A stretch of 44,511 nucleotides of DNA from Bacteriovoracaceae bacterium (GTDB taxonomy: Bacteria; Bdellovibrionota; Bacteriovoracia; Bacteriovoracales; Bacteriovoracaceae): positions 1-44,511 of the forward strand of contig JAGSHI010000013.1 of the NCBI GenBank assembly GCA_023954635.1, given 5' to 3'. Under the pieces are notes generated by a model. That model searched no databases. It was not told the DNA's origin and saw only the letters and a list, made by a program, of their open reading frames with translations. The number at the start of each line of letters is the position of its first letter. Position 1 is the first letter of the stretch. Positions 24,221 to 28,751 of the stretch are shown here, piece after piece. The position numbers and the translations under genes are program-made.

Positions 24221-26128
24221 ATGAGAAAGCTATTCTTAACTTTAGTTGTATTTATATTAACTCTTCCCTTGTATGCACAAGTTGCTGAGAGTGAACACGT
24301 TACTCAGATAAACTCTGAGTTAGAAAATGCTACAGAGTCCTTAGAAAACTTAAATAGAACAACGGTGCGTTGCCCTGAAAGTAATTCAAGCTCTCCAGAG
24401 CCTCTTTCTTTGAATCCAAGACATCAACGTGAACCAAGAGCAGAAAGAGTTGGATTTTTCTACGATCTTCAATATGTACTGGCAGGAGAAAATGGTAGGC
24501 AAAGTTTTGTTTCAACACCTATGGGGACAGTTAATTTAGGATCAGCAGTAGGAAATTATGCAAGCGCAAATGGTCTAACCAGACAACAAGTTCTCAACCT
24601 TGGAGATGACAAGTTACGTGAAATATTACGGGACTCTTCTTCATTAACAGGGCAAGCATTAGACGATGCAGTTGAAAATGCTATTTTAATAAAAGATTTA
24701 AGTTCCTTAAATAACGACGAGGCAATGTACTCAGCTTTATCACAAAGAATGCAAGGTGCTAGCTTTGGTAGAAAAGTAGGCTTATTAGCAACTTTTTTAG
24801 ATACTTTTGGTAGCAACTACGACAATAGTAGAACTGAGTCAGGCAGTGACACAGCATCAGGAACAGTAACCTTGACTGATATGATGCAAGCTCATAACTC
24901 AAATATTACAAGCGGAACTCAAATTGATGCTGGTGTATGTCGAGACATGCACCAAGCAGCGGTTAGACTAGCTCATTCCATGGGAATTGAAGAGGCCTTT
25001 GGTGTTGGCTTTAGATCTCAAGGTGGTGGACACAGAACTATGGTCCTATCTGATCCTAATAACAGAGGGACTACATATCAATTAAATTATGGAAGAGTGC
25101 TTACTCAAGATGGTGTAGCTGGTGCGACAGCATTAAGCCAAAACCATACTATTCCAGATGTTGGAATTCGTTTTAGAATTTATAATGCAGATGACAAGCC
25201 TGCTATTATTCTACCAAGTGACAGAGGCACTATTCTAAATAGAATGTCAGGTGGACAAGATTCTGACCTAGACCTCATGCACACTGCAAATATAGACACG
25301 GCCCAGGGTGGAATTGCAACTCCGTATGGTAATTTCAGAGTTTTTAACGCTAGAGCAAGTATGGGTAACGGTGAAGAAATCACAGGTATTTCATATAATG
25401 TTCATGTTGATTACAATAAAACTTTTTATGGCGAATATGGAATCACAGGATTCCAAGCTGAGAGAGATACAGAAAAAGGTGTTCTAAAGTCAATGGGCCT
25501 CTATGCAAGAAGTACCCAAGGCTTCAATCATACGAGTCAAGTTACAGAAAATTTTATGATCGAAACTCATGGTGCCATCCATTTAAGAGGAATGTATGCA
25601 AGCACATCTGTCGGTGGGAATGAGAGAGAATCAAACTCAGACTATAATGTTAACGCCCAATATGGTGTTAGAGCACACTACAGAACAGGTCCTGTCAGAC
25701 ATACTTCATCAGTAACTTTTGATTCTACTATTGATCAAGCTGATGCAATTGATGGTGGACAAGGTGTTGCTGTTATTACTCCTACAACTTTAGTCACACA
25801 TGAAGTAGAAGTCCCAATTGCAGATCAAACGAGATTAAACGCAATGCTTGGGCTCGCTTTTAGAGATTTAGGAACAACTTCATATGTGACTTATGATTCA
25901 GAAGTTGGTATTACAAATGATCGCACGGGGACTAGCTTTGTCGTTGGATCAGAAGGAGCATTAAGTAATAATACTCCAATGTGGCTACCTGGTTCAGAAA
26001 GAGTGGGAACTATTGGGTTTAGACAAAATCTTGTCGGTGAACATGTACAATTAAATGTAACTGGTGTTCAATCATTTGAGAACAGAAATAATAATATGTT
26101 CATGGCCGGTATCTCAGGAAGATTTTAA
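24221..26128 (+). CDS. Transglutaminase-like domain fused to an outer-membrane beta-barrel
   Basis: 635 aa. Signal peptide to about residue 20 (LFLTLVVFILTLPLYAQ). Residues 170-320 contain a transglutaminase/papain-like core: AGVCRDMHQAAVRLAHSMGI with Cys240, GGGHRTMVLSDPNN with His271 and Asp278, so a full Cys-His-Asp triad is present. From about 360 to the end the sequence is alternating beta strands rich in Asn, Thr and Gly, ending FMAGISGRF with a C-terminal Phe typical of outer-membrane proteins. I infer a surface- or periplasm-facing peptidase/amidase or transglutaminase carried on a barrel. The ATG follows GAGGA. The stop overlaps the start of the thioredoxin gene (TAATG). Domain order is strongly suggested, exact fold boundaries are not. 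Confidence 0.75.
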   Translation: MRKLFLTLVVFILTLPLYAQVAESEHVTQINSELENATESLENLNRTTVRCPESNSSSPEPLSLNPRHQREPRAERVGFFYDLQYVLAGENGRQSFVSTPMGTVNLGSAVGNYASANGLTRQQVLNLGDDKLREILRDSSSLTGQALDDAVENAILIKDLSSLNNDEAMYSALSQRMQGASFGRKVGLLATFLDTFGSNYDNSRTESGSDTASGTVTLTDMMQAHNSNITSGTQIDAGVCRDMHQAAVRLAHSMGIEEAFGVGFRSQGGGHRTMVLSDPNNRGTTYQLNYGRVLTQDGVAGATALSQNHTIPDVGIRFRIYNADDKPAIILPSDRGTILNRMSGGQDSDLDLMHTANIDTAQGGIATPYGNFRVFNARASMGNGEEITGISYNVHVDYNKTFYGEYGITGFQAERDTEKGVLKSMGLYARSTQGFNHTSQVTENFMIETHGAIHLRGMYASTSVGGNERESNSDYNVNAQYGVRAHYRTGPVRHTSSVTFDSTIDQADAIDGGQGVAVITPTTLVTHEVEVPIADQTRLNAMLGLAFRDLGTTSYVTYDSEVGITNDRTGTSFVVGSEGALSNNTPMWLPGSERVGTIGFRQNLVGEHVQLNVTGVQSFENRNNNMFMAGISGRF

Positions 26129-26562
26129 TGGAAAGACTTCATGTTGCTAATTTTGAGCAAGTTGCATCTACAGAAAAAAATGTTTTTGTTATCAAATTTT
26201 CTTCCCCAACTTGTGGGCCATGCCACAGTATGGCACCTATTGTAGAAGAGTTTGATAAAAATAACCCTCGAATAAAAGTATATGAAGTAGACACAATGGA
26301 AAGCCCAGAGATTGCAGCTCATTTTGGTGTCAGAGGGGTTCCTCATATTTCATTTTGTGAAAACAGAGAGGTCATATACAACATAACAGGACTTACGCCT
26401 CTAAAAACTCTTCAATTTGTTGCGGATAATATAAACGATACTTACCTCAGGACGTATGGACATTTTAAACGTCCTGAGACAAAGAAGACTTGGTGGTATG
26501 AAATAAGCTTAACAGTCGTTATTTCACTACTCGCTTTTATGATTTTCTTTTACCGAGCTTAA
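26128..26562 (+). CDS. Thioredoxin with C-terminal membrane anchor
   Basis: 144 aa. The thioredoxin active site CGPC is at residues 29-32, followed by VRGVPHISF with the conserved cis-Pro. A single hydrophobic segment near the C-terminus (ISLTVVISLLAFMIFFYRA, about 125-144) suggests a tail anchor, with the redox domain in the cytoplasm because no signal peptide is present. It overlaps the TGase-barrel stop by 1 bp as TAATG, so it is co-translated with it. A joint task such as thiol control of exported proteins is speculative. Standard thioredoxins lack this tail. Its end abuts the convergent lipoprotein gene. Thioredoxin call is firm; membrane topology is inferred. Confidence 0.88.
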   Translation: MERLHVANFEQVASTEKNVFVIKFSSPTCGPCHSMAPIVEEFDKNNPRIKVYEVDTMESPEIAAHFGVRGVPHISFCENREVIYNITGLTPLKTLQFVADNINDTYLRTYGHFKRPETKKTWWYEISLTVVISLLAFMIFFYRA

Positions 26563-27042
26563 TTATTTTTGTGGTAATACTACTGTAACTCTTTGACGGT
26601 TACCATTTCGACCTGAACCTAGATTAAAGTCAACGTTACCTTGGTAATAATAAGTAGACCACCACATACATCTCTTACCTAGACGAACAATTTCCATTGG
26701 GAGAAGACCTGGAACAGGTGAAAAGTAATTATTGATTGTAATTTTAACTTGTCCAGTATTTCTAGACCTTTGAATTCTTCCTGGTAAATGTCTACCTCTA
26801 GATCGAGAACATTCATCAAGAACAACTTGTCCGGCCACAATAAGTTTGATCTTAGAAGGAAAGTTTCTAAAATTAGTATTGATTACCCAATCTGATTTAG
26901 GACCAGGTTGTTGACAACCAAATTGTTGGTTAAAACCACAGTTATTGTTTGGGTTGAAGTTAGGATTATTGGCCTGGGTTTTATTATCTTTTCCACAAGA
27001 AACCAAAGTCATTAACATCACTGCAAAAATCATATTCTTCAT
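26563..27042 (-). CDS. Asn/Gln-rich lipoprotein, unknown
   Basis: 159 aa from ATG 27042, which follows GGAG with a 6-nt spacing; a TTG 6 bp earlier is less likely. The lipobox Cys is in MLMTLVSC. Next comes a low-complexity linker rich in Asn, Gln and Pro (NNPNFNPNNNCGF, QQFGCQQPGP) that would tether a C-terminal beta-rich domain of about 100 residues. That domain starts with SDWVINTNFRNF and ends with RVTVVLPQK. It lies tail-to-tail with the thioredoxin gene. Upstream on the minus strand is TTTGACACAAG, a motif also seen elsewhere in the window. Function unknown. Confidence 0.7.
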   Translation of the reverse strand: MKNMIFAVMLMTLVSCGKDNKTQANNPNFNPNNNCGFNQQFGCQQPGPKSDWVINTNFRNFPSKIKLIVAGQVVLDECSRSRGRHLPGRIQRSRNTGQVKITINNYFSPVPGLLPMEIVRLGKRCMWWSTYYYQGNVDFNLGSGRNGNRQRVTVVLPQK

Positions 27043-27185
27043 ATTCAACTCCGTCCTGCTTTTGTTTCACACTTGTGTCAAAAAGCATAGAACAACTACA
27101 CCAGATTGCCAAATAAGTGACATCTATGTGTCCATGGGGCACTTTGACACCAGAAAAGTCATTGAAAACTGGTGACAGCAGAGTA

Positions 27186-28751
27186 TTAGGGTCGACTATT
27201 TTGTTTAAAGTATTCTTCTAGGAACTGGTCAAATTTAAGGACATCAGAATCTTCAATTTCTTTTTGTTTTAAATGGGAGCTAGCTGAAGCTTGGTCAAGA
27301 TCAACCTTCACTTGCTCACTTAATGATTTTCCCTTAAGCCTTTTAGAGTAATCGTGCGATCTGGCCATTGTTGTAGAAAAGAAACACATCCCAGTTTCTT
27401 TCATTTCATTTAGTATTCGTTCTGAGTAGAGTTTTGAACTGTCATCAATACTGTCATAAAAGTGTTGAACTGAATTGGTATAATACTTCTCACCAAGTTC
27501 GTTATCTAATTTTGATGCTATTTGAAACAGGTTATCAAAAACTTCTTTTGCCAATTCCCTTGCAGGCACATCTTCAGATCCATTAAATAGGTTTAGGTTT
27601 TTCTGTCTTCCGTGTCTTGCAACTAATTCTTGATTGCTTCTAAATCTCTTATTCATTTCTAAAGTTAATAATTCATTCTTATCTAACAAACAATAAAGTA
27701 GAAAAACATCGAGGAAGTACACTTGCTCTATCTCAATTCCTATTGGTGAAAAGGCATTAACATCTACTGATCGCAACTCAAGGTACTCAACCCCACCTCT
27801 TAACAAGGCGTTCGTTGGAGACTCTCCAGACAAAGCGACACGCTTAGGCCTAACACCAGAGTAATATTCATTTTCAATTTGAAGTATATTTGAATTTAAT
27901 TGTTTATATTCACCATCTACCTTTATGCCTATATCTTCATAACGTTTTTCGGGAGTGAGAATAGCTTCCCTAAGCCCTGTAGCGTAGGAGTTAATGTCAT
28001 TATAACAAATTTTAATTTTACCTTGCTCAGAATTAGTATAACCGAGATTACTTAGCCTTAATGAGGTAGAGCCATCAAAATACATCGTACCTTTATCATC
28101 GAATTTTTTAAGAGAAAACTCTCCTCTCGTTTTATTAAGAAACGATTGGCAAATAGCTGGAGAAGATCCAAACACGAATGGAATTAACCATGAATGACGA
28201 TGAATATTTCTAGCGGCATTCATATACATCTTAGATTTAAAATCTTGAATAGATTGAGTTGACTCTTCAATGTCATGTAACAATAAAAAGAAATCATCTG
28301 ACAGTGAAAAATTAAAATGAATACCAGATATTACCTGCATAGCGGAACCATACCGATGAAGCAATCCTCTTCTATATACTGATTTCATTTTTCCAACATT
28401 AGAAGATCCGTAGTTTGCAATAGGAATTTTAGTTTCTTTCTCTAATAGACAAGGCATTGAATTCGCCCATAAAATCTCTTCATCCATTTGCTGTAAAGTA
28501 TAGACATGAAGATCTTCTAGGAACTTCAGCATTTCAACAGGGTCTGAATAAACTGGTGTTACAAATTCTAAAAGAGCTTCTGAATAGTCAGTTGTAATAG
28601 ATGGATGAGTTAAGGCAGAACCTAGCGCCATTGGATGAGGCTTTTGTGAAATGACCCCTTCTTTTGTAACTCTTAGCGATTCTTTTTCTATTCCTCTTCG
28701 AAGCGAGCTAGAAACTTTAAAATTATCAATTTTGTTTAACAAGTCTTTCAA
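27186..28751 (-). CDS. gshA: Glutamate-cysteine ligase
   Basis: 521 aa, matching the roughly 518 of the E. coli-type enzyme. The N-terminus has SSLRRGIEKESLRVTKEG, the family signature region, followed by ALTHPSITTDYSEALLEFVTPVY, which shapes the glutamate and Mg-ATP site. It ligates glutamate and cysteine, the first and limiting step of glutathione synthesis, in the cytoplasm. No gshB is next to it. A TTTTTGACACAAC element lies 87-99 bp upstream and may be part of its promoter. The ATG is 140 bp or more from any same-strand gene, so it is probably monocistronic. Confident. Confidence 0.94.
   Translation of the reverse strand: MKDLLNKIDNFKVSSSLRRGIEKESLRVTKEGVISQKPHPMALGSALTHPSITTDYSEALLEFVTPVYSDPVEMLKFLEDLHVYTLQQMDEEILWANSMPCLLEKETKIPIANYGSSNVGKMKSVYRRGLLHRYGSAMQVISGIHFNFSLSDDFFLLLHDIEESTQSIQDFKSKMYMNAARNIHRHSWLIPFVFGSSPAICQSFLNKTRGEFSLKKFDDKGTMYFDGSTSLRLSNLGYTNSEQGKIKICYNDINSYATGLREAILTPEKRYEDIGIKVDGEYKQLNSNILQIENEYYSGVRPKRVALSGESPTNALLRGGVEYLELRSVDVNAFSPIGIEIEQVYFLDVFLLYCLLDKNELLTLEMNKRFRSNQELVARHGRQKNLNLFNGSEDVPARELAKEVFDNLFQIASKLDNELGEKYYTNSVQHFYDSIDDSSKLYSERILNEMKETGMCFFSTTMARSHDYSKRLKGKSLSEQVKVDLDQASASSHLKQKEIEDSDVLKFDQFLEEYFKQNSRP

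Follow-up and report, generated by a model that had tools for sequence, protein, structure and literature searches.

A putative outer-membrane cysteine enzyme of transglutaminase-like fold in Bdellovibrionota, encoded beside a tail-anchored thioredoxin

The phylum Bdellovibrionota is known for predatory bacteria. Among the described systems that come closest to the locus reported here, the cysteine proteases LapG and DvhG use a C-H-D triad and are calcium-dependent, in the case of DvhG through acidic residues that flank the catalytic cysteine (D316/C317/E318) (PMC13090378). Enzyme-barrel fusions are represented by PlpD, which was once thought to be surface-exposed and whose enzyme domain is periplasmic (PMC11116518). 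Here, we analyzed a stretch of 44,511 nucleotides (the window; contig JAGSHI010000013.1) from a Bacteriovoracaceae bacterium, in which a transglutaminase-like (TG) domain appears to be fused to an outer-membrane barrel and the gene overlaps that of a thioredoxin. All coordinates refer to the window, and the features lie on the plus strand unless stated otherwise. Taken as a whole, the best explanation, to which we assign a probability of roughly two in three, is a self-contained outer-membrane cysteine enzyme of TG fold with a Cys-His-Asn triad, the thioredoxin being a separate neighbour.

Architecture and predicted catalytic residues of the TG-barrel protein

The TG-barrel gene (24221..26128) encodes 635 residues plus a stop codon and has homologues in genomes of both the family and the phylum. 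A probable Sec signal peptide, recognized by sequence inspection and by the similar N-termini of homologues, covers residues 1-19 (MRKLFLTLVVFILTLPLYA; 24221..24277). Further on lies a family-conserved amphipathic beta-strand, GFFYDLQYVLA (residues 78-88; 24452..24484), which shows strand-like alternation, was modelled as a strand at low confidence and could be a first barrel strand placed before the TG domain. A helical lead-in and the TG-like catalytic domain occupy residues about 104-345 (24530..25255), and a C-terminal outer-membrane beta-barrel follows at residues 358-635 (25292..26125). The original prediction had proposed such a barrel ending in Phe, and this was confirmed: about 15 strand elements in the C-terminal half of the model match solved outer-membrane barrels, with FhaC, BamA, TamA and others retrieved by Foldseek (best E 4.7e-6). 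Phe is also the last residue in 25 of 43 homologues, and F, W or Y in 34 of them. The protein thereby combines the signal peptide, amphipathic strands, barrel fold and aromatic C-terminus of outer-membrane beta-barrels. Purifying selection on the gene is seen when the two genomes that carry it together with the thioredoxin gene are compared (pN 0.18, synonymous sites saturated). The mature protein has two cysteines in all, Cys51 (24371-24373) and the catalytic Cys240. A lone N-terminal Cys, often followed by Pro, is found in many homologues, and Bdellovibrio-like homologues have CLNC or CLDC; a regulatory disulfide is possible.

Searched alone, the TG-barrel protein gave no sequence match in Pfam, NCBIfam or PDB. 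When 16 members of the family were searched against Pfam, four matched DUF553 (PF04473) and two matched Transglut_core (PF01841); one homologue passed the DUF553 cut-off (30 bits versus 20.5), the other matches fell below cut-off, and all of them covered the Cys-His region. Profile searches, suggested earlier as a check, thus succeeded for the thioredoxin (PF00085) and for some TG homologues, not for the TG-barrel protein itself. A comparison by hhalign between the profile of the TG region and 20 Transglut_core domains taken from related genomes yielded a probability of 94.1% (E 1.2e-7), whereas the controls (barrel region, thioredoxin profile and six column shuffles) reached at most about 0.6%. 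In this alignment Cys240 is paired with the TG Cys, and His271 with the TG His or a column next to it. Homology to transglutaminase-like superfamily profiles is detectable both by hhalign and through the homologue above the DUF553 cut-off. AlphaFold2 models were of moderate confidence for the whole protein (pLDDT 70, pTM 0.64) and for the TG domain (pLDDT 76, pTM 0.75). Both models have the element order expected for the superfamily, with Cys at a helix start, then a His strand, then an Asn strand. Among the leading matches in Foldseek searches with the TG domain were vasohibin, LapG, a TGase, CPR-C4 and menin, none of them significant (E 0.06 or worse, 0.06 being the best PDB value); these proteins belong to the TG-like fold group, and the ranking is suggestive only. 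Overall, the profile comparison, the DUF553 match of a homologue and the modelled element order provide good evidence for a predicted TG core in the 635-aa protein.

The catalytic residues were examined in an alignment of 43 homologues, a few of which are near-duplicates. Cys240 (24938..24940), at the start of helix 240-253, and His271 (25031..25033), on strand 269-277, are invariant in all 43. The original prediction of a transglutaminase-like domain on a barrel is supported in its fold, catalytic Cys and His, and needed correction at the third residue, for which Asp278 had been named. Position 278 ends the His strand and is replaced in seven of the 43 homologues (D 36, N 5, G 1, H 1), whereas Asn289 (25085..25087), on the next strand (285-293), is N in 40, D in 2 and S in 1. 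The spacings between successive triad residues are 30-38 and 16-18 across the alignment, and the order Cys-His-Asp/Asn is that of the transglutaminase-like superfamily. As read from alignment and model, the triad is Cys240-His271-Asn289, that is, Cys-His-Asn. One paralogue has Ser at the third position; Cys-His-Ser triads are found in vasohibins. Asn is a classical third triad residue, and third residues other than Asp have precedent (PMC4866520).

These features suggest how the protein might work. The Sec signal would export it, the C-terminal barrel, with about 14 to 16 strands, would anchor it in the outer membrane, and in the N-terminal TG-fold domain His271 would activate Cys240, which would form a thioester-type intermediate with a peptide or amide substrate. 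Hydrolysis, as by a peptidase or amidase such as LapG or vasohibin, seems more likely than cross-linking. The best reading is thus a barrel-anchored TG-fold cysteine peptidase or amidase, in which both catalysis and the preference for hydrolysis are inferred; a peptidase, a transamidase and an inactive binding domain would look the same by sequence. TG-like folds without activity are known, and the domain might accordingly be catalytically dead and serve in binding or as a plug, for example in adhesion. However, a Cys and a His that stay invariant in 43 divergent homologues, with only N, D or S at the third position, are hard to explain without catalysis, which makes a dead domain quite improbable. 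For the favoured cysteine enzyme, Cys240 offers a clear target residue for a first test.

Position of the TG domain relative to the outer membrane

Two placements of the TG domain have to be weighed. The first is a periplasmic tether, in which the N-terminal TG domain would sit beneath a conventional outer-membrane barrel and act on peptidoglycan peptides or periplasmic proteins. This is the default topology for outer-membrane proteins with N-terminal domains, and PlpD provides a precedent (PMC11116518). In a lineage that we infer to be Bdellovibrio-like, the TG-barrel gene moreover lies about 40 bp after a SpoIID-domain gene in three genomes. However, the SpoIID neighbour is confined to that lineage, and this topology would leave an odd number of strands after the TG domain. 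We consider a periplasmic position somewhat short of an even chance.

The second placement is surface display, in which the TG domain would occupy the first outward loop, inserted after barrel strand 1 (residues 78-88) and before the rest of the barrel, and would act on external or prey-surface proteins. The conserved strand 78-88 is as strongly amphipathic as the barrel strands: its alternation in the family profile is 1.13, where the 95th percentile of the background is 0.65. An even number of strands is normal for bacterial barrels; since 15 strands follow the TG domain, strand 78-88 could be strand 1 of the barrel and would complete such a number. Counting back from the C-terminus of the model, the turns assigned to the periplasm have about 3 residues and those assigned to the outside about 7, which would put the TG domain outside. 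On the other hand, residues 85-100 fall below pLDDT 50, strands 358-367 and 370-379 are weakly amphipathic, and PlpD, likewise an enzyme-barrel fusion once placed at the surface, carries its enzyme on the periplasmic side (PMC11116518). Surface display is thus a tentative reading, with the chances below even. The bolder version, that barrels across Bdellovibrionota display a Cys-His-Asn TG-fold enzyme at the surface, inserted after strand 1, and use it on surface or prey proteins, which it would process or cross-link, appears rather unlikely; such an inserted topology for outer-membrane enzymes was not described in the literature searched. If active and surface-exposed, the TG-barrel protein would be a candidate for a role in controlling adhesion or attacking prey surfaces.

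The neighbouring thioredoxin gene

Two sequence features of the original prediction, the TAATG overlap with a CGPC thioredoxin and the C-terminal membrane segment of the latter, held up. The open reading frames run from 24221 to 26128 and from 26128 to 26562, and the TAATG (26126..26130) is a stop-start overlap with one base common to both. The second frame (26128..26562) encodes a tail-anchored thioredoxin of 144 aa, with a CGPC motif in a thioredoxin fold (PF00085, E 3.7e-18, 65.8 bits versus a cut-off of 23.5). Its predicted C-terminal membrane helix (residues about 125-142; 26500..26553) is preceded by Lys/Arg-rich residues and is hydrophobic in all 10 aligned orthologues. The same ten sequences, including that of the window, share an invariant third Cys (Cys77) and were found only in the taxonomic family of the window. 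Like the TG-barrel gene, the thioredoxin gene is under purifying selection between the two pair-bearing genomes (pN 0.22, synonymous sites saturated). A Shine-Dalgarno-like AGGAAG (26116..26121) lies inside the TG-barrel gene, 6 nt before the thioredoxin ATG, and in the sister genome the TG-barrel TGA is followed within a few bases by a thioredoxin TTG. Translational coupling of the two genes is plausible because of the overlap, this site and the nearly contiguous frames of the sister genome; it would probably serve expression of the thioredoxin rather than joint function. On the minus strand after the thioredoxin gene (26563-28751), a small cysteine-bearing lipoprotein gene and a glutamate-cysteine ligase (GshA-like) gene are present, arranged in the same order as in the sister genome.

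The distribution of the two genes was then compared. Full-length thioredoxin orthologues with the same C-terminal helix were detected in 26 of 290 genomes, every one of which belongs to the family of the window. A search for the pair in other Bacteriovoracia had been suggested earlier, with conserved synteny to count as support; the search found the genes adjacent in this genome and one congener only, and a conserved pairing is rejected. The two genes are 128 kb apart in one genome (G009) and on different contigs in six others. In several genomes the thioredoxin occurs without a TG gene; of the TG-bearing genomes most have no thioredoxin, and of the thioredoxin carriers most have no TG gene. 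G009 also has a TrxA-like gene at a distance of about 1.8 kb from its TG gene; this appears to be a coincidence, as the TrxA-like protein is without the membrane tail and the two genes are separated by two unrelated ones.

The topology of the thioredoxin is also relevant. It has no signal peptide, and its single C-terminal helix is preceded by the basic stretch, so that, as judged by the positive-inside rule, the active site should face the cytoplasm. Direct thiol exchange with the exported TG-barrel protein is unlikely because the two are predicted in opposite compartments. The thioredoxin may possibly be a membrane-tethered electron donor, for example to DsbD. A DsbD-type carrier was found in every one of the 77 family genomes searched, which makes its co-occurrence uninformative as evidence of a link.

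The original prediction went further and envisaged an envelope-remodelling machine under thiol control. In such a machine the thioredoxin would keep the catalytic Cys reduced or resolve a disulfide with Cys240. Such a two-gene machine could draw on the overlapping or tightly spaced frames of both pair-bearing genomes, on the presence of exactly Cys51 and Cys240 in the mature protein (many homologues, too, have just one N-terminal Cys in addition to the catalytic Cys), and on the presence of DsbD-type carriers in all family genomes searched, through which cytoplasmic electrons could possibly reach the periplasm indirectly. However, the adjacency is confined to one genus, each gene mostly occurs without the other, and a cytoplasm-facing thioredoxin would be separated from an exported TG protein. 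The machine is therefore unsupported and very improbable. Since nearly all other genomes are without the pair, and its two products appear to sit in different cell compartments, the thioredoxin is probably just a neighbour of the TG-barrel gene, separately conserved, and not an obligate partner.

Distribution of the TG-barrel family and comparison with known systems

By profile search, TG-barrel homologues were identified in 45 of 100 genomes of the family of the window and in 72 of 293 genomes of the phylum, that is, in about a quarter of the latter. Named relatives come from Bdellovibrionales, Bdellovibrionota and Deltaproteobacteria metagenome-assembled genomes. In one genome two paralogues lie about 6 kb apart on one contig, and several other genomes have 3 to 5 copies; a further copy (L071:3199-5256) has an in-frame stop and is probably decayed or misassembled. 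Clustering of neighbours at 37 TG loci revealed none that recurs in a constant position outside close relatives, and a conserved TG operon is rejected; the TG-barrel protein thus appears to work alone. A CBS-like gene occurs at four of the 37 loci, its position not constant. SpoIID, stomatin and NfeD recur beside the TG-barrel gene only in the Bdellovibrio-like lineage, where it comes after a SpoIID-domain gene and has stomatin-like and NfeD-like genes upstream (L064:4293-5447, L065:3541-4701 and L067:1330-2532). In two related genomes (L059:2323-8177 and L060:9163-13739) the TG-barrel gene is followed downstream by a gene for a protein of about 1,020 aa, of unknown family, and by an overlapping subtilase gene. 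A viral origin is rejected, viral contigs having yielded no relatives, and a scan for promoters and terminators remained near chance level. Neither Pfam nor NCBIfam has a model dedicated to the family, and few of its members score above the cut-off of any curated model. Among the freely accessible papers searched, none was found to describe a TG fold on a barrel combined with a thioredoxin, in agreement with the earlier statement that no characterized system of this kind was known. The family is real and, as far as the libraries and papers searched go, undescribed.

With regard to known systems, the window thioredoxin shares the CGPC thioredoxin fold of PF00085 and differs in the conserved C-terminal membrane helix of its subfamily, found only in its own taxonomic family. 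The TG domain as modelled resembles Transglut_core and DUF553 in having Cys at a helix start, His on the following strand and the third residue on the next; unlike them, it usually has Asn as third residue, is fused to an outer-membrane barrel and in most members stays under the family cut-offs. Vasohibin and CPR-C4 type proteases share its superfamily and triad order and stand near the top of the structure matches, but have no comparable signal peptide-barrel architecture. LapG and other periplasmic cysteine proteases of the BTLCP group likewise have a TG-like fold in the Gram-negative envelope, LapG being among the top, non-significant matches; however, LapG and DvhG are soluble or in the inner membrane, whereas the TG-barrel protein is barrel-anchored, and in place of a C-H-D triad with acidic calcium-binding residues by the Cys it has V239-C240-R241 and Asn289. 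In PlpD (type Vd) and classical autotransporters, an enzyme domain also precedes a C-terminal outer-membrane barrel in one chain, but the enzyme fold is different, the TG-barrel protein has a possible first barrel strand before the enzyme, and none of 16 members matched the autotransporter (PF03797) or POTRA/Omp85 domains of Pfam. The TG-barrel chain would thus unite the cysteine-enzyme fold of envelope proteolysis, as in LapG, with an outer-membrane barrel.
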